A stretch of DNA of 64,000 nucleotides, taken from Datnioides undecimradiatus. Lineage: Eukaryota; Chordata; Actinopteri; Lobotiformes; Datnioididae. Under the pieces are notes generated by a model. The model searched no databases, was not told the DNA's origin, and was given only the letters and a program-made list of their open reading frames with translations. The DNA lies in the NCBI GenBank assembly GCA_008933995.1, contig WARS01002854.1, positions 56,356-120,355 of the forward strand, given 5' to 3'. Of this stretch, positions 11,231-64,000 are shown piece by piece. How positions within the stretch are numbered: position 1 is the stretch's first letter; every line of letters starts with the position of its first letter. A program made the position numbers and the translations under genes.

Positions 11231-11850
11231 CTGATGGAGCTGATGGAGCTGATGTTTGTCTGCAGAGCAACCAGCAGCCTGAGCAGTGGAGCAGCTGCAG
11301 AGTCAGAGGGAAGTGTCTGCATCAGATCAGGAGGACATGCTGGTCGTCTCCTCCACATTCGCGGGGCTGTGCAGCGTGAATTCATCCCCCAGGGTCAGTG
11401 GAGAGCTCTGCTGCACCGCTCTGAGGCGTCTGAGGGAGGAGACTCAGCACCAACCACCTGAACTGGGACAGGTGGAGCTCTGCTTCTCCATCAGGACACA
11501 CAGCACTGAGAACACACACAGTGTTTTAGCTGCAGCAACACAATCGCTGCTCTGCACCGCCCTGCTGCTGCACCTGCAGACACACATTTCTCCTTCTTCT
11601 TCTCCTTCTCCTCCTTCTCCACAGTGACGGTGCAGCTGAAGGGTCTCTGCTCTGACACAGTGGAGGAGGTCCAGAGGACGTCACAGATGGAGCTGCACAA
11701 GGTCACAGAGCAGGACTTCAGGGAGAGATCAGAGCGTTGCAGGAGCTCTGGGAGCAGAGCATCACTGCACAAGGTCACTACTCTGCACAAGGTCACTACT
11801 CTGCACAAGGTCACTACTCTGCGCAAGGTCACTACTCTGCAGGACGGAGG
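11231..11850 (+). pseudogene. Mariner-like (SETMAR-type) transposase relic, copy 1
   Basis: Seen: a REFIPQGQ peptide at 11375-11398, then in shifted frames RRLREETQHQPPELGQ, then DTVEEVQRTSQMELHKVTEQ after a CT-rich insert. Known: mariner-family transposases have an HREFIPQGQ-like motif, an RRLRE-RRPE-W segment, and a C-terminal IEEIQ...FQ..F end, so the order fits. Broken: an 8-bp deletion relative to copy 2 after the GQ codons, frameshifts, loss of the DNAPAH-like catalytic segment, and a CT-rich insertion at about 11588-11623. The 3' end is an array of four 18-bp units (GCACAAGGTCACTACTCT) at 11767-11838 that would encode repeats of AQGHYS, a stutter of the terminal motif. No terminal inverted repeats were recognised. 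Confidence 0.65.
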
Positions 11851-12519
11851 TTCCTGTTTGTTTACCTGCAAACTGTGGTTTATTGTGACTCATGTTGTGA
11901 TTTTAATATCAAATGACTGGTTTTGGCCACGTGATGAGTTTCCTGTTCGGTCTCTAACGATGAGCTAACGGAGGTGGCGGCGGCATCTCCACCTTTGACG
12001 ACCGCCTCCAGTTCCAACAGAAACAGCGTTTTATCTCCATCTGTGCCACCAATCATCCCTCACAGCCACCGCCCACGCGCGCTTTAATTACGACATAAAT
12101 GTGCTTGACATCTCCCTATCCCTCCCCCCTCGCTGCCTCCCCCCTCTCTCTCTTCACCTGACACACACTGTGACGCTCACTCCCAGCAGCCATTTCCGCC
12201 ATGCGAATGGCTTTTCAAACAGCACTGATGGAGTTTCTAACTGATGTCAGGCGGCATGTAAGACATGATGAATGCTCGCCACCCCCCCACCGGGCGGGGC
12301 GGGGTCGAGTGCTGATGTATGGCCGCAGGTTGATAAAGAGAAGACATACGGGACACAGGAAACGTGGTGGATGGAGATCCTGGAGTCATGTGACGCTGTC
12401 TGAGAAGGATTTACAGCTGCATCAGTCAGCGGCCAATCAGAGCGGTCCTCAACGTCCACTCGCTCTCTGCTGTCGCACACTGAAGGACACACAGTCGGTG
12501 TGCTCCCTGTGTCTCTGTG

Positions 12520-23530: not shown

Positions 23531-24073
23531 AGCTCCAGAGCTGAACATCTGAGCTGTGGCTCCACCGACCTGCTGCCATTGTTCTGTATTGTACTGTAAA
23601 TAGTTCCCATAGTTAGGACTCTGTTGTCCTACCATTCTGCCAGTTGTCGTCTACAGTTATCTCTGTCTGTCTTCGACAAGATGTATTTTCTCTCTCTCTC
23701 TCTCCCCCTCTTGTCTCTCTCTCTCCCCCTCCTCCCTCTTGTCTCTCTCTCTCCCCCTCCTCCCTCCTGTCTCTCTCTCTCTCCCCCTCCTCCCTCCTGT
23801 CTCTCTCTCTCTCTCTCTCTCCCTCCTGTCTCTCTCTCTCTCTCTTTCCCCCCAACTGGTCAAGGCAGATGTCCGTCCACCCTGATCCAGGATCTGTCCA
23901 AGGTTTCTGCCTGTTAAAGGAAGTTTTCCTTGCCACTGTTGCCAAGTGCTTGCTCATGGTGGAACTGTTGGGTGTAACTAACAGTAATGAGTGTGGTCTA
24001 GACCTGCTCTGTTTGTGACTTTGGTTGTGAATTATAAATAAAATTGAATTGAATTGAATTGAATTGAATTGAA
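23531..24073 (+). repeat. Interspersed teleost repeat with (GAATT)n tail, copy 1
   Basis: Contains GCTCCAGAGCTGAACATCTG, a CT-rich block (23689-23850), the block GGAAGTTTTCCTTGCCACTG, TGAGTGTGGTCTAGACCTGC and the tail TTGTGAATTATAAATAAAAT plus (TGAAT)n. This 3' module is very common in fish genomes and looks retroposon-derived; the exact family is not certain. A second copy lies at 57.3 kb in the same orientation. Confidence 0.7.
23689..23850 (+). repeat. CT-rich minisatellite inside repeat copy 1
   Basis: Units of roughly 25-28 bp (CTCTCTCTCCCCCTCCTCCC then TCTTGT or TCCTGT), about five copies, giving spurious Leu/Ser and Glu/Arg open frames on the two strands. Confidence 0.85.
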
Positions 24074-25974: not shown

Positions 25975-26110
25975 CATGGAGGGGGCGGGGCTTATGAGCT
26001 GTGCTGCAGCCAGACACCAGGGGGTGGGGCTTATTAGCTGTACTGCAGCCAGACACCAGGGGGTGGGGCTTATGAGCTGTACTGCAGCCAGACACCAGGG
26101 GGTGGTCCAG
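25975..26110 (+). repeat. 39-bp tandem repeat with CTCF-like cores, array 1
   Basis: Four units with exact 39-bp spacing. Three carry ACACCAGGGGGTGG (starting 26014, 26053, 26092) and the first is partial. The unit is GGGCTTATGAGCTGTACTGC followed by AGCCAGACACCAGGGGGTG. The array ends in GTCCAGATGT. Confidence 0.9.
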
Positions 26111-27080: not shown

Positions 27081-27212
27081 TTGCCAGGGGGCGGGGCTTA
27101 CGAGCCACACTACAGCCAGACACCAGGGGGCGGGGCTTATGATCTGTACTGCAGCCAGACACCAGGGGGCGGGGCTTATGATCTGTACTGCAGCCAGACA
27201 CCAGGGGGCGGT
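27081..27212 (+). repeat. 39-bp tandem repeat with CTCF-like cores, array 2
   Basis: Four units at the same 39-bp period, with ACACCAGGGGGCGG starting at 27120, 27159 and 27198 and a partial unit at 27081. The same unit and same ending (GTCCAGGTGT) occur as in array 1 about 1.1 kb upstream. ACACCAGGGGGC differs from the published CTCF core CCASYAGRKGGC at one position. Confidence 0.9.
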
Positions 27213-32785: not shown

Positions 32786-33060
32786 TGGAGCCTGATGGAG
32801 CTGATGGAGGCTGATGGAGGCTGATGGAGCTGATGGAGGCTGATGGAGCTGATGGAGGCTAATGGAGCTGAAGGAGGCTGATGGAGGCTGATGGAGCTGA
32901 AGGAGGCTGATGGAGCTGATGGAGGCTGATGGAGCTGAAGGAGGCTGATGGAGGCTGATGGAGCTGATGGAGCTGATGGAGCTGAAGGAGGCTGATGGAG
33001 GCTGATGGAGGCTGATGGAGCTGATGGAGACTGATGGAGCTGATGGAGACTGATGGAGCT
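32786..33060 (+). repeat. GCTGATGGAG / GCTGATGGAGG minisatellite
   Basis: About 25 imperfect units of 9-10 bp (GAGCTGATG, GAGGCTGATG). The mariner relic copy at 11.2 kb has only two or three units at the same place, so the array expanded in copy 2 after duplication. Confidence 0.9.
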
Positions 33061-33656
33061 GATGTTTGTCTGCAGAGCAACCAGCAGCCTGAGCAGTGGA
33101 GCAGCTGCAGAGTCAGAGGGAAGTGTCTGCATCAGATCAGGAGGACATGCTGCTCGTCTCCTCCACATTCACAGGGTTGTGCAGAGTGAATTCATCCCCC
33201 AGGGTCAGACTGTCAGTGGAGAGCTCTGCTGCACCGCTCTGAGGCGTCTGAGGGAGGAGACTCAGCACCAACCACCTGAACTGGGACAGGTGGAGCTCTG
33301 CTTCTCCATCAGGACACACAGCACTGAGAACACACACAGTGTTTTAGCTGCAGCAACACAATCGCTGCTCTGCACCGCCCTGCTGCTGCACCTGCACACA
33401 CATTTCTCCTTCTTCTTCTCCTTCTTCTCCTTCTCCTCCTTCTCCACAGTGATGGTGCAGCTGAAGGGTCTCTGCTCTGACACAGTGGAGGAGGTCCAGA
33501 GGACGTCACAGATGGAGCTGCACAAGGTCACAGAGCAGGACTTCAGGGAGAGATCAGAGCGTTGCAGGAGCTCTGGGAGCAGAGCATCACTGCACAAGGT
33601 CACTACTCTGCACAAGGTCACTACTCTGCACAAGGTCACTACTCTGAGGGACAGAG
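33050..33656 (+). pseudogene. Mariner-like transposase relic, copy 2
   Basis: A near-identical direct copy of the relic at 11.2 kb. It keeps the 8 bp missing there, so SEFIPQGQTV (33185-33214) runs in frame into ALRRLREETQHQPPELGQ, through the CT-rich insert and into DTVEEVQRTSQMELHKVTEQ. It has three 18-bp units at 33592-33645 instead of four. The catalytic aspartate segment is not recognisable, so it is not a functional transposase although one frame stays open for about 219 codons. It sits directly after an expanded GCTGATGGAG minisatellite. Confidence 0.65.
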
Positions 33657-34290
33657 GACAGGGTCACAGTGGGGACTTTACATTAAAAACAAAGGTTCTT
33701 ATAGATGTTTGATAAATAATGCATTGTCAGATTCAGGAGCGTCAGTTGATGTTTGTCACGTCCCTGATATTTCAGGCTTCAGTGAAACAGGAAGCTGCAG
33801 AGCGTCGATGAATACACAGAGCAGTTCCACTCTGACAGGACTGAGCACTGAGTCATTTAATCCTGACTTATTTAGATACATGACGGAGGATAATTCAATT
33901 TATATAAGCAAGTTTGAGCCTCACACACACTCACACACACACAGCGAGCGCGGGATGAATGGGCCGACAGAGTTAATGTCTCAGCTGTGCGTGGCCATAA
34001 AATGGGATGAATCTTTACGGCCGTGTCATCCCATCACATAATATCCTTCAAGCTGCGTTCTTCTCCAGCGAGCTGAACCGCCGCGCTTTCAATTTAGAAG
34101 ATTCAGTCGCTTCAGTTCCCTCCGTGACACCACGGGCTGTGGGAGGAGAGACGACCTCCACCCTTCCCCCACCCGTTGGTTCATCACTGCAGCTGCAGGC
34201 AAAGAGGCAGCGAGGTGTTTTCGTGATGCTCCTGCTGAGTTTCAGATGAGTCCTGTTTCAGCAGCTGGACCATGTGGAGGCGAACAGCCG

Positions 34291-52233: not shown

Positions 52234-52239
52234 TTTATT
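52234..52239 (-). terminator. Candidate polyadenylation signal of the small mucin-like gene
   Basis: AATAAA on the minus strand, about 380 nt after the stop codon. It is the first canonical hexamer I noticed downstream. The 3'UTR would include a short (GT)n run at about 52562-52577. Confidence 0.4.
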
Positions 52240-52620
52240 GTGATAATTAAAAATCTTTTTTTTTTCTCTTTGCTTTTGTTTAAAAGGTGAAAAACTAACC
52301 TGTTTTTGAGGTTTTAGTTGTTATTATTTGTTTGCTGTGAGTCAGATTTGATAAAACCACATATTAAAATTTCAATAAACATGAATAATTAAGTTGATTT
52401 AGCGTAAATTATTATGCAGACACACTATAATATATAAAGCACTGACACGTAAAACATTGGAAAAACTATATTGTAAACAACAGAAAGTTTACAGTTACAG
52501 ACAAACTTCAGAGTGTTCCAGTGAGTCCTCCCATCACAGAAGTGACACCTCCAGGAGGGAAACACACACACACACAGCAAAACAAGTCAGCGTATCAGTT
52601 TAGTTACAGCATCGTAACCT

Positions 52621-53291
52621 TCAACAGCCGAACTGAAGAACAAGGGTAATCGCAGCCACGACGACGGAGAGGAGACTGATTTTGTTGATGAAGGCGGAGG
52701 AGGCTGTGGATGTAGTTGTTGGTGTGGTTGTTGGTGTGGGTGTGGTTGTTGTGGAAGCAGGTGTGGTTGTTGTTGGTGTGGGTGTGGTTGTTGGTGGTGG
52801 TGTGGGTGTGGTTGTTGTGGAAGCAGGTGTGGTTGTTGTGGAAGCAGGTGTGGTTGTTGTTAGTGTGGGTGTGGTTGTTGTTGCTGGTGTTGTTGTGGTT
52901 GTCGTTGGTGTGGGTGTGGTTGTTGTCGAAGCAGGTGTGGTTGTTGTTGGTGTGGGTGTGGTTGTTGTCGAAGCAGGTGTTGTTGTTGTTGGTGTGGGTG
53001 TGGTTGTTGTCGAAGCAGGTGTGGTTGTTGTCAAAGCAGGTGTGGTTGTTGGTGGTGTGGGTGTGGTTGTTGTCAAAGCAGGTGTGGATGTTGTTGGAAC
53101 AGCTGTGGTTGTTGTTACAGCAGCTGTGGTTGTTGTTACAGCAGCTGTGGTTGACTGTGCGTCGCCTGAGGCTGTGTTGATCAGAAAACGTTGGATCATT
53201 TTCATGTTTCTGGTTCAAACTTGTTCTTTTTGAAATTAAAGTTTTTCTTACCAACAAACAGAAGCAGGACGACCCAAACAGCTGTAGTCAT
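52621..53291 (-). CDS. Small Thr-rich, mucin-like, probably GPI-anchored surface protein (two coding exons)
   Basis: Seen: the coding sequence joins 53252-53291 (start codon and 13 residues) to 52621-53171, giving 196 residues. The start context is CACCATGA, a good Kozak site. The first exon encodes MTTAVWVVLLLFV and is followed by the donor GTAAG. The second exon follows a CAG acceptor at 53172-53174 and continues ASGDAQS, so splicing builds an ordinary signal peptide with cleavage likely near residues 17-20. Residues about 20-172 are roughly 60% Thr with Pro, Ala and Ser, in irregular units such as TTTTPASTTTTPTP. No Cys or N-glycosylation sequon lies in this part. The last ~24 residues (SSAFINKISLLSVVVAAITL onward) are hydrophobic and end without a basic anchor, as in GPI-attachment signals. 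Inference: an O-glycosylated cell-surface protein. It is a probable paralogue of the giant gene at 58,554-64,000. Alternatively the tail is a short transmembrane segment. The specific family is not recognised. Confidence 0.8.
53172..53251 (-). other. 80-nt phase-1 intron of the small mucin-like gene
   Basis: The donor is G|GTAAG at 53251 reading down. The acceptor is TTTTCTGATCAACACAG ending at 53172. Removing it joins the signal-peptide codons in frame to the Thr-rich exon. Reading through it instead gives a stop about ten codons after the donor, which supports the intron. Confidence 0.75.
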
Positions 53292-53324
53292 GGTGACGCA
53301 GGTGTAGTTTCTCTGCCCCGCTTT
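53252..53324 (-). other. Exon 2 (5'UTR end plus signal-peptide codons) and its acceptor
   Basis: A TGTTTTTAG acceptor ends at 53325, so the exon would begin at 53324. A second CAG at 53313-53315 would give a start at 53312. No ATG precedes the start codon at 53291 in this exon. The upstream intron would run about 53325-53952 and is AT-rich. Confidence 0.55.
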
Positions 53325-53952
53325 CTAAAAACACATGAAATGGTTCATTTTCATCACTTAAAAAACCTAAAAATGTGGATATTGAATAAACGAGTATCAA
53401 CTGAGTGACATATTATGAAACTGCTTTTGTTTCCAGTATGTCTGTAATTTATTGAATCCAGTTTAGGACAATTAAAATATAATTAAATATAATATTAAAT
53501 ATAAATTAAATATAAGATTGTAATTAAATTTAAAAAAACAAATGAAAATGTGTATTGAAATGTGTTGATCGTAGTATAATGACAAACTTTGTTTGTTTGT
53601 ATCACTGTATTTATTTAAAGTGTTAAAGTTTTTTTTCAGAAATATTTTTTAAAAAACTTAAACACATTAAAATCTGGCACAATAAAACAAGTACAATAAA
53701 ACAGGTCAAAACTCTGCCATGTTTCTTTAGTGTAATGTATAAAATGTGAATTCTATTGATGAGTGAAAATTGTATTTGGATTTGATTAATTTACAATTTA
53801 CAATTTAATTAAATTGTAAATTGATTAATGTATTGGATCATAAACAGTTTAGAAATCTTGCTTTAAATATACACATGCACATAAAACCCTTATGATAAAA
53901 TGCTAAAAATAAGAAAATACAAACATAATTAAAAAATAAATTAACTACTCAC

Positions 53953-53995
53953 ATGTTCCTCGTGTTGAGGGTGGTTGCGTGCAGTGGAGCTGTGA
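53953..53995 (-). other. Putative untranslated first exon of the small mucin-like gene
   Basis: It lies about 30 nt downstream of a TATA box and ends at the strong donor GTGAGT (53952 reading down). It contains no ATG once spliced. The 5' end is estimated from the TATA spacing and is not seen directly. Confidence 0.5.
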
Positions 53996-54017
53996 GGTTC
54001 TCCAGCCTCAGTTCTTC

Positions 54018-54025
54018 TTTTTATA
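54018..54025 (-). promoter_or_regulatory. TATA box of the small mucin-like gene
   Basis: The minus strand reads TATAAAAA, in the right place relative to a donor-terminated short exon and the coding exons. A TATA-driven promoter suits a tissue-restricted, highly expressed gene (inference). Confidence 0.55.
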
Positions 54026-55308
54026 TGAGACCTATCTGAGATGAGATCAGCCTGAGGACACAGGTGAGACGGACGTGGCAGGTGCACTGGGAGTAAGGGT
54101 GAATCCCTTCGTGATTGAAGCTGTGCTCAAGAACCTTTTCATTATCACGTTTGCATCTTTTGTTCCACCAATGCAAACATAATACCTGCCATGGTTTCAA
54201 CGATGGCTGCAGACGCCGCTCGTGCACTGTGACACTTTACAAGTCGATTTAATGACCTGGGTCTGTTTCCTTTAATGGTTCTTTGTTACTGTAGAACATT
54301 TCAGTCATTGTCAGAGCTCTGATCTACTTCCTTACCAATGATCTGCAGCAAGTTGTTTCATGCAGATAGTCACAAGTCAATTATAAATATGTGGAAGTGA
54401 AAAAGAGGATGAAAGCACTGACTTCCCTCCACGTTGTTCACTCAAATGTTCATTTTATGTTTCATGTTTCATTTTATAAATATTATATTTAAGAATTAGC
54501 ATGAGGTCTTACGTCACATCTCGGGGCCTCTGTCAGATGAGTTTCCACCATCTTCTATCACAAGATGCAGGATCCAGGTCTTTGGATCAACACCTGCAAC
54601 TCCAGCAGCTGCTGAAGCCCACAGAACTGGCTGAATGATCTGGATAAAACTTACAATAAGTGGACTGAAAATGACACATGCTCACAACAAACGCTACTCA
54701 GAGTAACCTTTCAATGAAAACAGAGTCAAAGTTACGAGATTCACGAGAGAACGGCGCGACTGATGAACAGTTTCAAACCAGGAGTAAGAAATAAATCAAT
54801 AGTTTAATCTAAACACATTTAAAATATACTGAGTGTATATGTTCAAGTGGCGTGTTACTGAATGTTTTGCTTAATTACACAGCAATAGTATAATTATTAC
54901 AGACTTTCTTAGAAACACCTGTTTAGCTGCTCGTTAATACAAACATCTAGCCAATGATGCGGCAGCAGCTCATTTGAATTTAGTCTTATAAACACGATGG
55001 AGATGATCTGCTGGTCGTCGGCTTATCATCCCGACCAAACCAGTTCAGACCAGCATCAGAATGAGGAAGAGATGTGGTTCCAGATAACTTGGGCTGTTTT
55101 TTGGATTCCAGAAGCTGCAGATCTACCAGGATTTCATGGACGACATATCTGCTGGGGGAAATTACTTTGTCAGTGGTGGAGGTCAAAGGTCGGACTGAAG
55201 TGAGCACAATGCCAGGTGTCGCTCCTGTTGATTAAGAACTGGAAACTGAAGCTGCAGTCGACCAAAGTTGTGCTGCCTGAAGTCTCGATTTCTCCTGCGA
55301 CATTTATA

Positions 55309-55462
55309 ATTTCAGACTTTGGCATGAACAGCATAGAAACAAGGATCCGTCCCGCCTCGGCTCGACAGCTCACACTGCTGCCGGTTCTCCCAGCTGGATG
55401 GCGGATATGACGCGAGCTCACTGGGCTCAAATGGCCTCCGCAGTCTCCAGATCTCCTTTGGT
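55309..55462 (+). pseudogene. Degraded Tc1-like transposase fragment
   Basis: The stretch around TTGGCATGAACAGCATAGAA and then AAATGGCCTCCGCAGTCTCC resembles, from memory, two blocks of a common fish Tc1-like transposase. The second reads LKWPPQSPDL, the start of the WPxQSPDLNPIEHLW motif; the NPIEH codons are deleted before a TTTGGTATG remnant. The DDE catalytic residues between the blocks are lost. No inverted terminal repeats were identified. Confidence 0.5.
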
Positions 55463-57261
55463 ATGTTTGATGGGCGTTCTTGTTGGTCAGATACAATGCT
55501 AATACTTACAGTATATATCTATAGATACAGATGCACACACTGTATATGCAGGCACTGTTGTTGTTCAGGTCAAATAGGCCTGAGAAGATTCTTTATAATA
55601 AAGGTCATGTGACAAAACATTTCCTGTTTTATAACTACATCCTTCATCTTTCCCGCGCTAAGTTCCCCAAACTTAATGCTAATGGAGATCCAGTAAGAGC
55701 TGATTTGTTGTCATTAAATTCAGAGAGGAACGCTGACACGTCACAGTCTGCAGGTTTCACCCAACACAATAAAGTGAATGGGTCCATAGTCTCCATCTAT
55801 AATCCTGTTGTAAACCCGTTCGTCCTGTTCAGGGTTTGGTCAGACTGGAGCCCATCCTAGTTGCGGCACAGACTGAACCTCCCATGTTATTATATTTGAG
55901 TCAGAGAGCAGCAGTGGCTGCCTGCTTCTCTAAAATGTGAACCCAGGAAAGTGGTTTAACATCATTTGAAGAGCTGTCAACGGTTTTAGAACATTTGGAT
56001 CAAACATGTTCTGTTCGGTTCACGATAGAACTGATTTTTCTCATTTCTGTGAATCTGTAATCCTAATGCTTTGTTTGCTTTGTGCTTCCAGAAGAAGAAT
56101 CCATGTTCTGGTTTGTTTTACCTGGTTTGGTCACATCAGGTCCAATACATTTTTAAAAATTCAGTAATTTTTGACAATTTTATGTCAAACTTTGTGTCAA
56201 CAGCTTCTCTCCTTTCTGGTTTAACACAACGATGCCCGTTATAATCAGACTTTTTAGATCAAGGAAGTGCATCGGCTCCAGAGAACCAATGAAAAGTGTT
56301 CAAAAGAGCATAACATTCTTGGCTCTTCACCAAAGACAAATCACTTGTATCTTGGCTGATGACCAGGCCTGATTTCATCAAAGTGTATTAAGTTTCTCTT
56401 GATCTCGTGGCACATCCTGCTTTGCTAGTGCAAACAGTCTGCAAATTATCGTGTCAGTCAATCACCTCTCTTATAAACGACACTGTCAACCCCATAAAAA
56501 CCGTGTGATATACAAACTAGCAAAGCCACTGATAGTGTGCTCAGCGGCTCATGCTAAGCTCAGGAAAGTGATTCATTCTCAGTTATTTCACTCTTGTTGC
56601 AGTGACGCTCATTAATCCTTTAAAATGACCTTGTTATTGAGATGTACTGTTAAAATAATCCTTGACTCAGGGTCGAATATCACTTCCCACTGATTCTTAG
56701 TGGCATATTGTATCGATCATGATGTGCAGCTGCTGTGTTCCTCTGCTGTCAGATGATCCAGTTGGCCGACTGTTGACAACCAAATGTTGTAGCTGATGCA
56801 AATCAGGATGAAAATGTGGTTTCTTGCTACTTTACTTTATTGTTACATTGATGCATAAATGAGTCAAGTCAAAAGTCAAGAAAGCAAATAGAAAAACGGC
56901 CATAAAATTAGAAAAATTATAATAAAGCATGTTGGTTACATCTCATATGAGCAATATGACTGTTATCTAAACAAAACAGCTGTAAAATCTGAAGCAATGT
57001 GCAAAACTGTGTATTAACCCTGTAGCTGGAGACTGGTTGTGGAGGAGGTTCTCAGATCATAAGCACAAAGTAAACGATGATTAGCATCAACATATACTCA
57101 GGGTAGAAAGTACAATATTTCTCTGTTATTGTTATTTTGAGTGAAATGTAATTAATTACTTTTCACATATGATCATGTCATTAACTCTGTGTCCTCTCTC
57201 CTCTAGTGCTGTGCTTGTTTCTCTCTGGTCTCTCTCTCTGTACCTCTCTACAGATACCTGT

Positions 57262-57617
57262 GGCTCCAGAGCTGAACATCTGATCTGTGGCTCCACCGAC
57301 CTGCCCCGTGTCCTCTGCTGCCACTTCTTATCATTATTGTATTATTATCATTATTGTCCTGCTAACAGCAGCACGTACGTGCATGTACAACTTGCATATG
57401 CTGCTGTGTCTTCTCTCTTCCTCTCTCTCTCTCTCTTTCCCCCCAGCCGGTCAGGGCAGATTTCCGTCCACCTAGAGGCAGGCTCTGCCCAAGGTTTCTG
57501 TATTTGTGTAACTAATACTAATGAGTGTGGTCTAGACCCTCTCTGTCTGTAAAGTGCCCTGAGATGACCTTGGTTGTGAATTACCCCTATATAAAAAAAA
57601 ACTGAATTGAACTGAAC
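57262..57617 (+). repeat. Interspersed teleost repeat, copy 2
   Basis: Shares with copy 1 GCTCCAGAGCTGAACATCTG, the CT-rich block ending CTTTCCCCCCAGCCGGTCAG, TAATGAGTGTGGTCTAGACC and TTGGTTGTGAATTA. The TTCCTTGCCACTG block is deleted. The tail is TATATAAAAAAAACTGAATT. It lies between the two mucin-like genes. Confidence 0.65.
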
Positions 57618-58495
57618 ACTGAACTCAACATTATAATAAATAATTATTTTCTGAATAGAAACTATAGGAAAACACATCCGGGCGAAAATATGCTGAAAGA
57701 CTAAATATCATTTGTATTTGACTGCGAGGTACAAAGTAGAAAGGTCTGCACACTGTTAGCCTTCAAATCATTTTCTCCTTAACTTTTGATTTAAATCCCT
57801 GTTGGCATCTCACACCTGTGTTCTGCTGCATTGGAGTTAGTTTTTTTAGTTTTTATATTTTGTTTCTTTAGATGCCTACCATGCTGGGTTTTGCTGTACT
57901 TGGATCGTAGGGAATATAATCTGTTATGCAACAGATGCCAAGTCAACATGGCGCTGCAGGACACTCTCCATCAGAAACAAAACACTAGTATGATGCTGCA
58001 TCAGAAATTAAAGCTGAAGGACACATAAATGTTTTCTGCATTTGATGCTTTAATACATTTAATAACTGAATGTTTACATAAACAATCACTTCAGTATTCA
58101 TCCACTAAATTGAGAACAGGAAATGCATTTGGATACAAAACCAAACTATGGCCTCATAATACTTCAATCAACATCACTTTAATAACATCACAAACAATAG
58201 CTGTTCATGATGTGGCCACCACATCACAATTGATTAGAAGTGATTCTGGATATTGAGACATGAACTGTATGTACACTAGTCCTTAATTTGAATAAAGTAG
58301 GTGTGATTCATCAGAAAATGACTGAAAATCTATTGTAATGTCCATGAATGTATCACTTCTCAGTATGAAATAACATAATGTTAGAGATCGGAAGTTTGAA
58401 CATCCTCCCTAAAAAATTTAAGATACAGTAATGAAACAAATACAGGTACAATAAACCATTAGAATAAATTAATTAAGTATAAATAAAATGAAACA

Positions 58496-58501
58496 TTTAT
58501 T
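58496..58501 (-). terminator. Candidate polyadenylation signal of the giant mucin-like gene
   Basis: AATAAA on the minus strand about 52 nt after the stop codon, which gives a very short 3'UTR. The flanking sequence is AT-rich, so chance occurrence is possible. Confidence 0.4.
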
Positions 58502-58553
58502 GAATATGTTAACAGAAGTTAATTGGATTTAGTGCCTTATTCCAATCTAGTTC

Positions 58554-61500
58554 TTAATTGCAGAGAACTGCTGTAACAACTGCAATTATAACAAGAAAAC
58601 TTGTTTGGCTAATGACTGCAGAAGAGGCAACCGTTGTTGTCGCTGGAGCTGCTGCTGCTGGTGGTGCTGTTGTTGTAGTTGCTCTGACTGTGGTCATTGT
58701 TGACGCCACAGTGGTTGTTGCAACAGTTGTTGTTGTCGCCGCTGTTGTAGTTGTTGTTGTTGCAGTTGTGGCTGTTGTTGGGGTCGCTGTACTGGTTGTT
58801 CTTGCAGTTGTTGTTGTTGGGACTGCTGTGGTTGTTGTTGCTGCTGCAGTTGTGGTTGTTGTTGCAGTTGTGGTTGTTGTTGGTGAGGCTGTGGTTGTTG
58901 TTAGGGCAGCTGTGGTAATTGTTGGTGGAACCCCTGTGGTTGTTGTTGCTGCAGTTGTTGTTGCTGCTGTAGTTGTTGCTGTAGTTGTGGTTGTTGTTGG
59001 TGCAGCTGCAATTGTTGTTGTTTTTGAGGGTGTGGCTGTTGTTGGGGCTGCTGTGGTTGTTGTTGGACTAGTCGTTGTTGTTGTTGCTGTAGTTGTTGTT
59101 GCTGTAGTTGTGGTTGTTGTTGGACTAGAGGTGGTTGCTGCCGTTGTGGTTGTTGTTGCTGTAATTGTGGTTGTTGTTGGGGCCACTGTACTGGTTGTTG
59201 CTGCAGTTGTTGTTGCTGCAGTTGTAGTGGTTGTTGGGGCTTCTGTGGTTGTTGTTTGACTAGTGGTGGTTCTTGCTGCAGCTGTGGTTGCTGTTGGGGC
59301 CACTGTAGTGGTTGTTGGGCCCACTGTGGTTGTTGTTGCTGAAGTTGTGGTTGTTGTTGGTGCGGCTGTCGTTGTTGTTGGGGCTGCTGTAGTGGTTGTT
59401 GCTGCACCTGTGGTTGCTGTTGGGGCCACTGTAGTGGTTGTTGGGGCCCCTGTGGTTGTTGCTGCAGTTGTGGTTGTTGTTGCTGCAGTTGTTGCTGCAG
59501 TTGTGGTTGTTGCTGCGGCTGTGGTTGTTGTTGGACTAGTCATTGCTCCTGCAGTTGTAGTTGTTGTTGGGGCTTCTGTGGTTGTTGTTGGACTAGTGGT
59601 GGTTGTTGCTGGAACCTCTGTGGTTGTTGTTGCTGCAGTTGTTGTTGCTGAAGTTGTGGTTGTTGCTGCAGTTGTTGTTGTTGGGGCTGCTGTAGTGGTT
59701 GTTGCTGCTGCAGTTGTTGTTGCTGCAGTTGTGGTTGTCGGTGCGGCTGTCGATGTTGTTGGTGTGGCTGTGGTTGTTGTTGGACTAGTCATTGCTGCTG
59801 CAGTTGTAGTTGCTGTTGGGGCCACTGTAGTGGTTGTTGGGGCCCCTGTGGTTGTTGCTGCAGTTGTGGTTGTTGTTGCTGCAGTTGTTGCTGCAGTTGT
59901 AGTTGTTGCTGCGGCTGTGGTTGTTGTTGGACTAGTCATTGCTCCTGCAGTTGTAGTTGTTGTTGGGGCTGCTGTGGTTGTTGTTGGACTAGTGGTGGTT
60001 GTTGCTGCTGCAGTTGTTGTTGCTGAAGTTGTGGTTGTTGCTGCAGTTGTTGTTGTTGGGGCTGCTGTAGTGGTTGTTGCTGCTGCAGTTGTTGTTGTTG
60101 CAGTTGTTGTTGCTGCAGTTGTGGTTGTCGGTGCGGCTGTCGATGTTGTTGGTGCGGCTGTGGTTGTTGTTGGGGCTGCTGTTGTTGTTGTTGTTGGACT
60201 AGTGGTGGTTGTTGTTGGAGCCTCTGTGGTCGTTGTTGCTGCAGCTGTGGTTGTTGTTGGACTAGTGGTGGTTGTTGTTGGAGCCTCTGTGGTTGTTGCT
60301 GCAGTTGTGGTTGTTGTTGGGGCTGCTGTGGTTGTTGTTGGAACCTCTGTGGTTGATGTTACTGCAGTTGTGGTTGTTGTTCGTGCGGCTGTCGTTGTTG
60401 TTGGACTAGTGGCGATTGTTGTTGCTGCAGTTGTTGGGGCCTCTGTGGTTGTTATTGCTGGAGTTGTTGTTGTTGCTGCAGTTGTGGTTGTTGTTGCTGC
60501 AGTTGTAGTGGTTCTTGGGGGTGCTATAGTGGTTGTTGTTGCTACAGTTGTAGTGGTTGCTGGGGCTCCTGTGGTTGTTGTTGGACTAGTGTTGGTTGTT
60601 GCTGCAGCTGTGGTTGCTGTTGGGGCCACTGTAGTGGCTGTTGGGCCCCCTGTGGTTGTTGTTGCTGCAGTTGTGGTTGTTGTTGTTGTTGGACTACTGG
60701 TGGTTGTTGCTGTTGGAGGTGTTGTTGTTGCTGCTGCGGCTGTGGTCGTTGTTGGGGCTGCTGTAGTGGTTGTTGTTGGGGCAGCTGTGGTTGTTGTTGC
60801 TGCAGTTGTAGTGGTTGTTGGGGTTTCTGTGGTTGTTGTTGGACTAGTGGTGGTTGTTGCTGCAGCTGTGGATGCTGTTGGGGCCTCTGTCATTGTTGTT
60901 GCTGGAGTTGTTGTTGTTGGGGCTACTGTGGTTGTTGTTGGACTAGTCGTTGTTGTTGCAGTTGTGGTTGTTATTGGGGCTGCTGTAGTGGTTGTTGCTG
61001 CTGCAGTTGTGGTTGTTGATGGGGCAGTTGTAGTGGTTGTTGGGGGTGCTGTAGTGGTTGTTGTTGCTACAGTTGTAGTGGTTGTTGGGGCTTCTGTGGT
61101 TGTTGTTGGACTGTTGTTGGTGGTTGTTGCTGCAGCTGTGGGTGCTGTTGGGGCCACTGTAGTGGTTGTTGTTGCTGCAGTTGTGGTTGGTCTTGGGGCC
61201 GCTGTGGTGGTTGTTGTTGCTGAACTTGTGGTTGTTGTTGGTGCGGCTGTGGGTGTTGTTGGACTAGTGGTGGTTGTTGTTGCTGCAGTTGTGGTGGTTG
61301 TCGGGGCCACTGCAGTGGTTGGTGCTGCAGTTGTTGTTGCTGCTGTGGCTGTGGTCATTGTTGGGGCTGCTGTAGTGGTTGTTGTTGGGGCAGCTGTGGT
61401 TGTTGTTGCTGCAGTTGTAGTGGTTGTTGGAGTTTCTGTGGTTGTTGTTGGACTAGTGGTTGTTGTTGCTGCAGCTGTGGATGCTGTTGGAGCCCCTGTG

Positions 61501-64000
61501 GTTGCTGTTGCTGCAGTTGTGGTTGTTGCTGCTGCAGTTGTTGTTGTTGGGGCCTCTGTCATTGTTGTTGCTGGAGTTGTTGTTGTTGGGGCTACTGTGG
61601 TTGTTGTTGGACTAGTCGTTGTTGTTGCAGTTGTGGTTGTTATTGGGGCTGCTGTAGTGGTTGTTGCTGCTGCAGTTGTGGTTGTTGATGGGGCAGTTGT
61701 AGTGGTTGTTGTTGCTGCAGCTGTGGTTGCTGTTGGGGCCACTGTAGTGGTTGTTGTTGCTGCAGTTGTGGTTGGTGTTGGGGCCGCTGTGGTTGTTTTT
61801 GCTGAAGATGTGGTTGTTGTTGGTGCGGCTGTGGTTGTTGGACTAATGGTGGTTGTTGTTGCTGCAGTTGTGGTGGTTGTTAGGGCCACTGCAGTGGTTG
61901 TTGCTGCAGTTGTTGTTGCTGCAGTTGTGGTTGTTGCGGCTGTGGTCGTTGTTGGGGCTGTTGTAGTGGTTGTTGGGGTTTCTGTGGTTGTTGTTGGACT
62001 AGTAGTGGTTGTTGCTGCAGTTGTGGTGGTTGTCGAGGCTGCAGTTGTGGTTGTTGTTGCTGCCGTTGTGGTTGTTGTTGCTGCAGTAGTGGTGGTTGTT
62101 GTTGGAGCCTCTGTGGTTGTTGTTGTTCCTGCCGCTGTGGTTGTTGTTGGGGCTGCTGTTGTTGTTGTTGGATTAGTGGTGGTTGATGTTGGAGCCACTG
62201 TGGTCGTTGTTGCTGCAGCGGTGGTTGTTGTTGGACTAGTGGTGGTTGTTGTTGGAGCCTCTGTGGTCGTTGTTCCTACAGTTGTGGTTGTTGTTGTGGC
62301 AGCTGTGGTTGTTGTTGGACTAGTGGTGGTTGATGTTGGAGCCTCTGTAGTTGTTGTTCCTACCGCTGTGGTTGTTGTTGGGGCTGCTGTTGTTGGACTA
62401 GTCGTTGTTGTTGCAGTTGTGGTTGTTATTGGGGCTGCTATAGTTATTGTTGTTACTGCAGTTGTTGTTGTTGTTGGGAATCCTGTGGTTGTTGTTGCTG
62501 CGGTTGTGGTTGTTGCTGCAGCTGTGATTGTTGTTGCAGTAGTGGTGGTTGCTGTTGGAGCCACTGTGGTCGTTGCTGCACTTGTGGTTGTTGTTGGGGC
62601 TGCAGTTGTGGTTGTTGTTGGACTAGTGGTGGTTGCTGTTGGAGCCACTGTGGTCGTTGTTGCTGCAGCTGTGGTTGTTGTTGGACTAGTGGTGGTTGTT
62701 GTTGGAGCCTCTGTGGTTGTTGTTCCTGCCGCTGTGGTTGTTGTTGGGGCTGCTGTTGTTGTTGTTCCTGCCGCTGTGGTTGTTGTTGGGGCTGCTGTTG
62801 TTGTTGTTGGACTAGTGGTGGTTGTTGTTGGAGCCTCTGTGGTTGTTGCTGCAGTTGTGGTTGTTGTTGGACTAGTGGTGGTTGTTGTTGCTGCCGTTGT
62901 GGTTGTTGTTGCTGCAGTAGTGATGGTTGTTGTTGCTGCAGTAGTGATGGTTGTTGTTGGAGCCTCTGTGGTTGTTGTTGTTCCTGCCGCTGTGGTTGTT
63001 GTTGGGGCTGCTGTTGTTGTTGTTGGATTAGTGGTGGTTGATGTTGGAGCCACTGTGGTCGTTGTTGCTGCCGTTGTGGTTGTTGTTGGGGCTGCTGTTA
63101 TTGTTGTTGTTGTTGGACTAGTGGTGGTTGTTGTTGGAGCCTCTGTGGTTGTTGTTCCTGCAGTTGTGGTTGTTGTTGGGGCCGTTGTGGTTGTTGTTGG
63201 ATTAGTGGTGGTTGCTGTTGGAGCCACTGTGGTCGTTGTTGCTGCAGCTGTGGTTGTTGTTGGACTAGTGGTGGTTGTTATTGGAGCCTCTGTGGTCGTT
63301 GTTCCTGCAGTTGTGGTTGTTGTTGTGGCAGCTGTGGTTGTTGTTGGACTAGTGGTGGTTGTTGTTGGAGCCTCTGTGGTTGTTGTTGGGGCTGCTGTTG
63401 TTGTTGTTGGATTAGTGGTGGTTGCTGTTGGAGCCACTGTGGTTGTTGTTGCTGCAGTTGTGGTTGTTGTTGGGGCTGCTGTTATTGTTGTTGTTGGACT
63501 AGTGGTGGTCGTTGTTGGAGCCTCTGTGGTTGTTGTTCCTGCAGTTGTGGTTGTTGATGGGGCCGTTGTGGTTGTTGTTGGGGCCGCTGTTGTTGGACTA
63601 GTGGTGGTTGTTGTTGGAGCCTCTGTGGTTGTTGTTCCTGCGGTTGTGGTTGTTGTTGTGGCAGCTGTGGTTGTTGTTGGACTAATGGTGGTTGTTGTTG
63701 GAGCCACTGTGGTTGTTGTTGCTGCAGTTGTGGTTGTTCTTGGGGCCGCTGTTGTTGTTGTTGTTGGACTAGTGGTGGTTGTTGTTGGAGCCTCTGTAGT
63801 TGTTGTTCCTGCGATTGTGGTTGTTGTTGTGGCAGCTGTGGTTGTTGTTGGACTAGTGGTGGTTGTTGTTGGAGCCTCTGTGGTTGTTGCTGCAGTTGTG
63901 GTTGTTGTTGGGGCTGCAGTTGTGGTTGTTGTTGCTGCCGTTGTGGTTGTTGTTGCTGCAGTAGTGGTGGTTGTTGTTGGAGCCTCTGTGGTTGTTGTTG
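58554..64000 (-). CDS. Giant Thr-rich mucin-like surface protein, 3' end of gene (5' end beyond window)
   Basis: Seen: one minus-strand frame is open from the window edge to a TAA at 58554-58556, at least 1,814 residues with no intron or stop. It is almost entirely Thr, Ala, Pro, Ser and Val, with occasional Glu, Gly and Ile. It is built from diverged units around EAPTTTTTSPTTTTAA and AAPTTTTTAGTTTT; EAP, SPTTTT and VAPTATT blocks recur throughout. The last ~24 residues (SSAVISQTSFLVIIAVVTAV onward, ending LCN) form a hydrophobic tail with no trailing basic residues, as in a GPI signal. The tail resembles that of the small gene at 52,621 (SSA, I, S, LL/FL, V, A, T, VL in order), which supports common origin. 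Known: Thr/Pro tandem-repeat domains of this kind carry dense O-glycans. Inference: a long, stiff, membrane-tethered mucin. No methionine start is needed inside the window. The signal-peptide exon is expected upstream of 64,000. No von Willebrand, SEA or cysteine-knot domain is present in this part. Confidence 0.75.
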   Translation of the reverse strand, partial: TTTTEAPTTTTTTAATTTTTAATTTTTAAPTTTTTAATTTEAPTTTTTSPTTTTAATTTTTIAGTTTTEAPTTTTTSPTTTTTAAPRTTTTAATTTTVAPTTTTISPTTTTAATTTTTTAGTTTTEAPTTTTTSPTTAAPTTTTTAPSTTTTAGTTTTEAPTTTTTSPTTTITAAPTTTTTAATTTTVAPTATTTNPTTTTAAPTTTTEAPTTTTTSPTTTTAATTTTTTAGTTTTEAPITTTTSPTTTTAAATTTTVAPTATTTNPTTTTTAPTTTTTAGTTTTEAPTTTTTSPTTTTITAAPTTTTTAATTTTVAPTSTTTNPTTTTAAPTTTTAAGTTTTTEAPTTTITTAATTTITTAATTTTTAATTTTTSPTTTTTAATTTEAPTTTTTSPTTTTAAPTTTTAAGTTTTAAPTTTTAAGTTTTEAPTTTTTSPTTTTAAATTTTVAPTATTTSPTTTTTAAPTTTTSAATTTVAPTATTTTATTITAAATTTTAATTTTGFPTTTTTAVTTITIAAPITTTTATTTTSPTTAAPTTTTAVGTTTTEAPTSTTTSPTTTTAATTTTTTVGTTTTEAPTTTTTSPTTTTAAATTTTVAPTSTTTNPTTTTAAPTTTTAAGTTTTTEAPTTTTTTAATTTTTAATTTTTAASTTTTTAATTTTSPTTTTETPTTTTTAPTTTTAATTTTAATTTAATTTAVALTTTTTAATTTTISPTTTAAPTTTTSSAKTTTAAPTPTTTAATTTTTVAPTATTAAATTTTTTAPSTTTTAAATTTTAAPITTTTATTTTSPTTTTVAPTTTTPATTMTEAPTTTTAAATTTTAATATTGAPTASTAAATTTTSPTTTTETPTTTTTAATTTTAAPTTTTTAAPTMTTATAATTTAAPTTAVAPTTTTTAATTTTTSPTTPTAAPTTTTSSATTTTTAAPRPTTTAATTTTTVAPTAPTAAATTTNNSPTTTTEAPTTTTTVATTTTTAPPTTTTTAPSTTTTAAATTTTAAPITTTTATTTTSPTTTTVAPTTTTPATTMTEAPTASTAAATTTTSPTTTTETPTTTTTAATTTTAAPTTTTTAAPTTTTAAAATTTPPTATTTSSPTTTTTTTAATTTTGGPTATTVAPTATTAAATTNTSPTTTTGAPATTTTVATTTTIAPPRTTTTAATTTTTAATTTTPAITTTEAPTTAATTIATSPTTTTAARTTTTTAVTSTTEVPTTTTAAPTTTTTAATTTEAPTTTTTSPTTTTAAATTTTEAPTTTTTSPTTTTTAAPTTTTAAPTTSTAAPTTTTAATTTATTTTAAATTTTAAPTTTTAATTTTSATTTAAATTTTSPTTTTAAPTTTTTAGAMTSPTTTTAAATTTTAATTAATTTTTAATTTGAPTTTTVAPTATTTAAAMTSPTTTTATPTTSTAAPTTTTAATTTAAATTTTAAPTTTTAATTTTSATTTAATTTTEVPATTTTSPTTTTEAPTTTTTAGAMTSPTTTTAAATTTTAATTAATTTTTAATTTGAPTTTTVAPTATTGAATTTTAAPTTTTAAPTTTTTSATTTTVGPTTTTVAPTATTAAARTTTSQTTTTEAPTTTTTAATTTAATTSTVAPTTTTITATTTTTAATTSSPTTTTTTATTTTATTTTTSPTTTTAAPTTATPSKTTTIAAAPTTTTTTATTTAATTTAATTTTGVPPTITTAALTTTTASPTTTTTATTTTTAAATTTTAVPTTTTARTTSTATPTTATTATTTTTTAATTTTVATTTVASTMTTVRATTTTAPPAAAAPATTTVASSAVISQTSFLVIIAVVTAVLCN

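Follow-up and report, generated by a model that had tools for sequence, protein, structure and literature searches.

A local family of predicted GPI-type, mucin-like genes of widely varying length beside RING1/RNF2-, RPS18- and VPS52-like genes in Datnioides undecimradiatus

Here we describe a cluster of threonine-rich genes in the fish Datnioides undecimradiatus, two of which lie in a stretch of 64,000 nucleotides (the window) that spans positions 56,356 to 120,355 of contig WARS01002854.1, here called C179, in assembly GCA_008933995.1. A third gene and a broken fourth copy lie further along the same contig. Compared by sequence, these three genes and the broken copy belong to a single family with at least four members spread over the two strands, and a local family of the glycosylphosphatidylinositol (GPI) type, mucin-like, of one design and widely varying length, is well supported at that level. 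We consider it likely that this local family of fish genes encodes mucin-like surface proteins of graded length that are anchored by GPI, and we infer that its members are transcribed, attached to GPI, O-glycosylated and active as a barrier. The genome searched comprised 581 Mb in 497 contigs, and a second contig, C188 (219.5 kb), which was covered over 100-151.5 kb, was compared with C179 (219.7 kb).

The smaller of the two window genes, gene 1, lies on the minus strand (coding span 53,291-52,621) and has a predicted product of 196 residues. Its first coding exon (53,252-53,324) carries the start codon at 53,291 together with the predicted signal peptide, MTTAVWVVLLLFV, and ends at the donor GTAAGA; an 80-bp, phase 1 intron with GT...AG ends (53,172-53,251) leads to the repeat exon (52,621-53,171), which holds the Thr/Pro/Ala heptads, the GPI-type tail STASSAFINKISLLSVVVAAITLVLQFGC (52,624-52,710; best 15-residue hydropathy 2.82) and the stop codon. 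Upstream there are a putative 5′ untranslated exon, placed by eye at 53,953-54,000 with an approximate start and with its 3′ end at a donor GTGAGT, and a TATA-like box that matches by consensus only (54,020-54,026, motif at 54,026), while an AATAAA motif lies downstream (52,234-52,239, motif at 52,239). Gene 2, also on the minus strand, is described here by its visible part, from the window edge to its stop at 58,554, since its 5′ end lies beyond the window. Its repeat exon (58,554-63,998) is uninterrupted over that distance and encodes at least 1,814 residues, of which 1,064 are Thr, 385 Ala and 154 Pro; it ends in the tail VASSAVISQTSFLVIIAVVTAVLCN (58,557-58,631), and an AATAAA motif follows 52 bases past the stop (58,496-58,501, motif at 58,501). 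An apparent open frame of 8,410 residues was discarded as an artefact of N read as X. A sequence-only reading of the window had described two such genes about 4.5 kb apart on the minus strand, the one of 196 residues with a spliced signal exon, a repeat exon and a tail, the other of at least 1,814 residues with a Thr-rich array and a GPI-type tail; these places and sizes hold, the gene 1 TATA-like box standing 4.5 kb from the gene 2 stop.

Gene 3 was found by a scan of C179 for Thr-rich frames and lies about 26 kb past the window on the plus strand, with its ATG at C179:146,512, a first exon that runs to 146,551 (donor GTGAGT), a second exon at 146,647-147,059, a TATA-like box near C179:146,246 seen by eye, and a predicted product of 150 residues. 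Likeness among the genes was judged against shuffles that keep composition, 20,000 for protein and 3,000 for DNA. The signal regions, MMMKICLILLLFV followed by GSGRGQ in gene 3 and the gene 1 signal peptide followed by ASGDAQ, are more alike than all 20,000 protein and all 3,000 DNA shuffles, and the phase 1 intron interrupts both genes in the identical place, after LLLFV. The gene 3 tail, AASSAAINKTSFLVIIAVVTAVLCN, resembles the gene 1 tail as no shuffle does (0/20,000, or 9/20,000 with the SSA set aside), and the gene 2 tail likewise in protein (0/20,000) and in DNA (0/3,000). Between genes 2 and 3 the tails are identical at 21 of 25 residues, and the DNA likeness reaches the first bases of the 3′ untranslated region, just beyond the stop.

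The two window genes on their own would leave their relationship in doubt. A local alignment of their tails scores 47, which 5 full shuffles in 20,000 equal (1 in 20,000 on a rerun); with the shared SSA set aside the count rises to 397 (386 in the rerun), and it reaches 513 when the polar and hydrophobic blocks are shuffled apart. Kinship from these two tails alone was rejected as too weak. The DNA of these tails shows no likeness, 1,220 of 3,000 shuffles being as good. That the tails align in order, as the sequence-only reading had said, is right as to the likeness, which is modest and suggestive only; against the outcome it had itself named as fatal, tails no better than random, the pair alone is borderline, and the difficulty is overcome only through gene 3. 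Because the gene 3 tail is significant to both, and the signal exon and intron phase are common to genes 1 and 3, the kinship of genes 1 and 2 is settled. The history proposed for them, a single ancestral duplication giving a pair, has to be given up, since the family has four copies or more, on both strands, and gene 2 is closest to gene 3. By these alignments gene 3, not gene 1, is the closest relative of gene 2 that we see, with gene 1 branching further off; the extreme change in size of the repeat exon survives as a size difference, with gene 2 (at least 1,814 residues) and gene 3 (150) as the partners in place of the original pair. A look for further copies beyond position 64,000 had been suggested, and gene 3 and the broken copy are such copies on the same contig.

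The broken copy is a Thr-rich array on the plus strand (C179:149200-150720) that an in-frame stop interrupts on both contigs; by eye it has no recognisable signal exon, and a normal tail is missing. Its 5′ untranslated exon matches that of gene 3 (0/3,000 shuffles as good) and shows no likeness to that of gene 1 (1,683/3,000), and in the genome search it was 70% identical to gene 3 over 178 of 356 bases. Those 356 bases, from the gene 3 promoter to its signal exon, found four places at E up to 1, namely gene 3 and the broken copy on each of C179 and C188. The gene 1 tail found two places at E up to 0.001, gene 1 on the two contigs, while the tails of gene 2 (E up to 1) and gene 3 (E up to 10) found the same four, genes 2 and 3 on each contig. 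Even with that last limit the gene 3 tail failed to recover gene 1; this whole-genome search is insensitive, scores the best candidates only and could overlook more distant members, which may exist.

The repeats themselves follow one plan. The autocorrelation of Thr over lags 1-29 has its maximum at lag 7 in genes 1, 2 and 3 (0.54, 0.46 and 0.51) and is negative at lag 3 (-0.16, -0.40 and -0.18), and by this measure the three genes have a heptad design in common. Thr, Ala, Pro and Ser together account for 81%, 92% and 75% of genes 1, 2 and 3, and Thr plus Ser for 46-62% of residues, so that composition and heptads give the long Ser/Thr/Pro-rich repeat domain of the mucin-like class.

Length, by comparison, varies even between the two contigs. 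These are nearly identical: by blastn the mismatches amount to 0.05% and 0.11% in a pair of intergenic stretches close to genes 1 and 2, and the 7.1 kb that surround gene 3 hold 19 mismatches, of which 15 fall inside 0.5 kb. C188 is probably the other haplotype of C179 and less likely a recent duplication. Gene 3 has 150 residues on both. Gene 1 has 196 residues on C179 and 182 on C188, a difference of 42 bp, and the readable part of gene 2 has 1,814 and 1,800, with indels of 21, 24, 42 and 45 bp. In the global alignment all five coding indels, four in gene 2 and one in gene 1, are multiples of three, as against none of four nearby intergenic indels (20, 2, 8 and 1 bases; blastn).

Selection is visible on the tails. 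A comparison of genes 2 and 3 over 25 codons counts 9 synonymous differences at 20 sites as against 4 nonsynonymous ones at 55 (ratio of nonsynonymous to synonymous change, dN/dS, 0.11; Fisher p 0.0005), so that purifying selection acts on these tails. In the array of gene 2 a C/T difference is less frequent at codon position 2 (27/1,163) than at position 3 (20/401; p 0.010), a test made on the 60 best-matching pairs of 63-base windows at 85% identity or more, which are not independent of one another; a p of 3e-5, obtained by an alternative count, is set aside. Self-alignments of gene 2 by blastn gave divergences of 0.157, 0.095 and 0.212 at the three codon positions and gaps in multiples of three in 148 of 201 cases, figures that come from the 2 of 71 rows past the filters, long and overlapping, and that are supporting only, slippage favouring threes. 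The repeats themselves are loose or diversifying.

Several observations weigh against the favoured reading. The long open frame of gene 2 would be weak evidence by itself, because ACN, GCN and CCN codons need at least two changes to become a stop, and it is weaker still because the opposite strand of the array (window 59,260-63,999, plus) is also open for 1,580 codons rich in Val, Gly and Ala, a by-product of the repeat. Its signal peptide is predicted by analogy, its 5′ end lying beyond the window. Across the 60 window pairs the overall difference is near-even by codon position (0.064, 0.052 and 0.071). Between the contigs all ten coding substitutions (0, 8 and 2 in genes 1, 2 and 3) are nonsynonymous, where 32.5% would be expected to be synonymous (p 0.037), so the recent substitutions in the repeats show no purifying selection; the gene 2 count depends on the alignment, being 8 in the global one as against 20 mismatches by blastn. 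Multiples of three are to be expected even without selection, because slippage acts in a repeat built of threes, and blastn breaks the 42-base deficit of gene 1 into four gaps (21, 11, 5 and 5). The 5′ untranslated exons of genes 1 and 3, finally, show no likeness (2,611/3,000 shuffles as good).

The open opposite strand, the ten amino-acid changes and the decay of the fourth copy, with its in-frame stop on both contigs, unseen signal exon and lost tail, would all suit an explanation in which gene 2 is a large minisatellite beside a decayed gene end, its frame kept open by stop-resistant repeat codons. We consider this unlikely. The tail, stop and polyadenylation signal of gene 2 are intact and the tail is constrained relative to gene 3, the readable 5.4 kb holds no frameshift on C179 or on C188, and in the array a C at position 2 is more conserved than one at position 3.

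A different doubt concerns the family of GPI-anchored surface proteins that we favour at its C-terminal end, where GPI signals, like the signal peptides, were judged by hydropathy and by eye and not by a formal predictor. The textbook GPI signal consists of small residues, a spacer and a short hydrophobic C-terminus without a basic end. The tails measure 23-26 residues from SSA to the end, their best 15-residue hydropathy is 2.67-2.82, and they stay hydrophobic to the C-terminus with no basic residue or cytoplasmic tail after the hydrophobic part; with the SSA as small-residue site, a spacer, and the signal peptides of genes 1 and 3 (hydropathy 2.23 and 2.29), they have the predicted layout of GPI-anchored proteins. 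Genes 1 and 3 and visible gene 2 have no internal hydrophobic stretch above the limit of 1.6. A hydrophobic C-terminal stretch alone is no proof of a GPI signal, and the proteins might instead be mucins that cross the membrane once and have a very short cytoplasmic tail or none; that about 15 strongly hydrophobic residues run nearly to the end with no basic residue after them, preceded by three small residues and a spacer some six residues long, makes this quite improbable. Convergence, in which unrelated Thr-rich genes each acquired a GPI-like tail, is very improbable indeed: the gene 1 and gene 2 tails alone stand modestly above shuffles and their DNA is unlike, but the gene 3 tail matches both, gene 3 has the signal exon and intron phase of gene 1, and all lie on one contig.

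As to the class of protein, Pfam at E 0.01 found no family in ten open reading frames (ORFs) of the window, which were genes 1 and 2 and eight other candidates, nor in gene 3, in keeping with the suggestion of a mucin-like family with GPI-type tails that could not be matched to a named mucin. A gel-forming mucin was rejected, as that search found no vWD, C8 or cystine-knot domain in genes 1 and 3 or visible gene 2, and a membrane-spanning mucin was rejected on a hydrophobic tail that reaches the C-terminus and the want of a SEA domain. A PDB sequence search with gene 1 gave no match at E up to 1. Among the literature matches listed, by title and abstract opening, there was none on GPI-type mucins of such a kind in fish.

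The family resembles known systems in part. Vertebrate membrane and gel-forming mucins such as Muc2, Muc13, Muc19 and I-Muc of the gilthead sea bream have similarly long Thr/Pro-rich repeats, likely O-glycosylated. In the available text on these, I-Muc and Muc13 have SEA domains, transmembrane segments and cytoplasmic tails, and vWD, C8 and CK domains appear in a figure legend (PMC3680472). The fish family here differs in having no Pfam domain and a GPI-type tail, with gene 2 compared by its visible part only. Closer in layout, by description only, are CD24 and CD52, small GPI-anchored sialomucins with a signal peptide, a short Ser/Thr-rich stem, a GPI signal and few exons, which are much shorter and have no long heptad repeat. 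Human MUC21, MUC22 and MUCL3, mucins with Ser/Thr repeats, are encoded in the class I part of the major histocompatibility complex (MHC) and span the membrane, with cytoplasmic tails; again compared by description, they are alike in being MHC-linked repeats, whereas the genes here have a GPI-type tail and stand by RING1-RPS18-VPS52. Fish antifreeze glycoproteins are likewise Thr/Ala-rich and repeat every three residues as against seven here, and an identity of this kind was rejected because the Thr-Ala-Ala tripeptide period is wrong for an autocorrelation that is negative at lag 3 and peaks at lag 7. The GPI-anchored mucins of Trypanosoma cruzi, a gene family with Thr-rich repeats and a GPI signal, are alike in working, though the organism is unrelated and the likeness is by description only. 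To our knowledge large vertebrate mucins are secreted or membrane-spanning, so that one with a GPI-type tail and over 1,800 residues would be unusual.

Elsewhere in the window, scans with Rfam (gathering scores) and for tRNA gave no match over the 64 kb, and among the ten segments listed by a coding-potential scan none was a convincing exon of another gene. Window positions 11,283-11,900 and 33,044-33,700 resemble each other as two copies of a single sequence, and both contain an 18-bp tandem repeat, CTGCACAAGGTCACTACT. Minisatellites with similar 39-bp units form arrays at 25,980-26,105 and 27,084-27,211, about 1 kb apart, and a putative dispersed repeat element, recognised by eye from similar ORFs, has two copies at 57,350-57,600 and 23,600-24,000.

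Further along C179, at about 188-205 kb, exons match RAWUL (6.5e-19), Ribosomal_S13 (1.4e-14) and Vps52 (4.9e-52 and 5.8e-26) in Pfam, which places RING1/RNF2-, RPS18- and VPS52-like genes next to one another; the RAWUL match cannot separate RING1 from RNF2. In teleosts the RING1-RPS18-VPS52 block is associated with the MHC class I region. Since there is no MHC class I match on C179 or C188, parts of which read N, it is this conserved block that links the cluster to the MHC; genome-wide there are at least 17 MHC_I matches, 16 of them above the cut-off, a count that is a lower bound. Two V-set immunoglobulin exons lie at 209-213 kb of C179. Two long ORFs at C179:215304-217150, near VPS52 as in salmon, were considered as a gene induced by viral haemorrhagic septicaemia virus, a name that is a guess and was not kept; there was no Pfam match for either and no PDB match for the first. 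Outside the window, ORFs at C179:170336-170755 presumably resemble the end of a fish retrotransposon.

In other fishes, genes of this block lie in the MHC region or close to it. Zebrafish vps52 is given on chromosome 19 with other MHC-type genes, RING1 not being found there (PMC1309616). For Nile tilapia, vps52, rps18, rnf2, hmcn1, ha1f and muc5ac are listed within 755 kb of the start of Oni22 (PMC8405827), and a 2025 fine-mapping study in tilapia places ring2, rps18, vps52, ptk7, hmcn1, ha1f, lgals17 and h2-k1 in its first group, with tap2a and psmb9a about 8 Mb off, indels having been discarded (PMC12774591). Through single-nucleotide polymorphisms (SNPs) these two tilapia studies, as far as their text goes, map virus resistance to the RING1-RPS18-VPS52 block (PMC8405827, PMC12774591). 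The word "mucin" has no occurrence in the main text of either. The muc5ac listed near vps52, rps18, rnf2 and hmcn1 (PMC8405827) is like the genes here in position; the comparison is by name only, and orthology would be a guess.

How the GPI-type family might work can be sketched from its parts. A short signal peptide would bring the protein into the endoplasmic reticulum, where a GPI anchor would replace the hydrophobic C-terminal tail at Ser-Ser-Ala, and heavy O-glycosylation on Thr of the 7-residue repeat would turn the chains into stiff rods, covered in sugar and tethered to the outer membrane. The single repeat exon would grow and shrink by codon-sized slippage while signal and tail are kept, and rod length (150, 196 and at least 1,814 residues) would differ because the repeat exon changes size in this way. 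The most likely job of such proteins would be to coat the surface of epithelial or blood cells, as a barrier or glycocalyx whose reach depends on rod length, and the cluster may serve as a cell-surface shield.

What this means for the family is, first, that the close relatives gene 2 and gene 3 differ at least 12-fold in length while their tails stay constrained. Repeat-length differences between near-identical contigs, moreover, put length polymorphism beside RING1-RPS18-VPS52. The 2021 gene list for the tilapia lake virus locus on Oni22, in the text available, has muc5ac beside vps52 (PMC8405827). We think it improbable, though conceivable, that the cluster is an MHC-block-linked GPI-mucin family, its position conserved in spiny-rayed fishes and its repeat length hyper-variable; if it were, length alleles, which are hard for SNP arrays and short reads, would be a candidate for the disease-resistance effects mapped to the block, such as the tilapia lake virus locus on Oni22.

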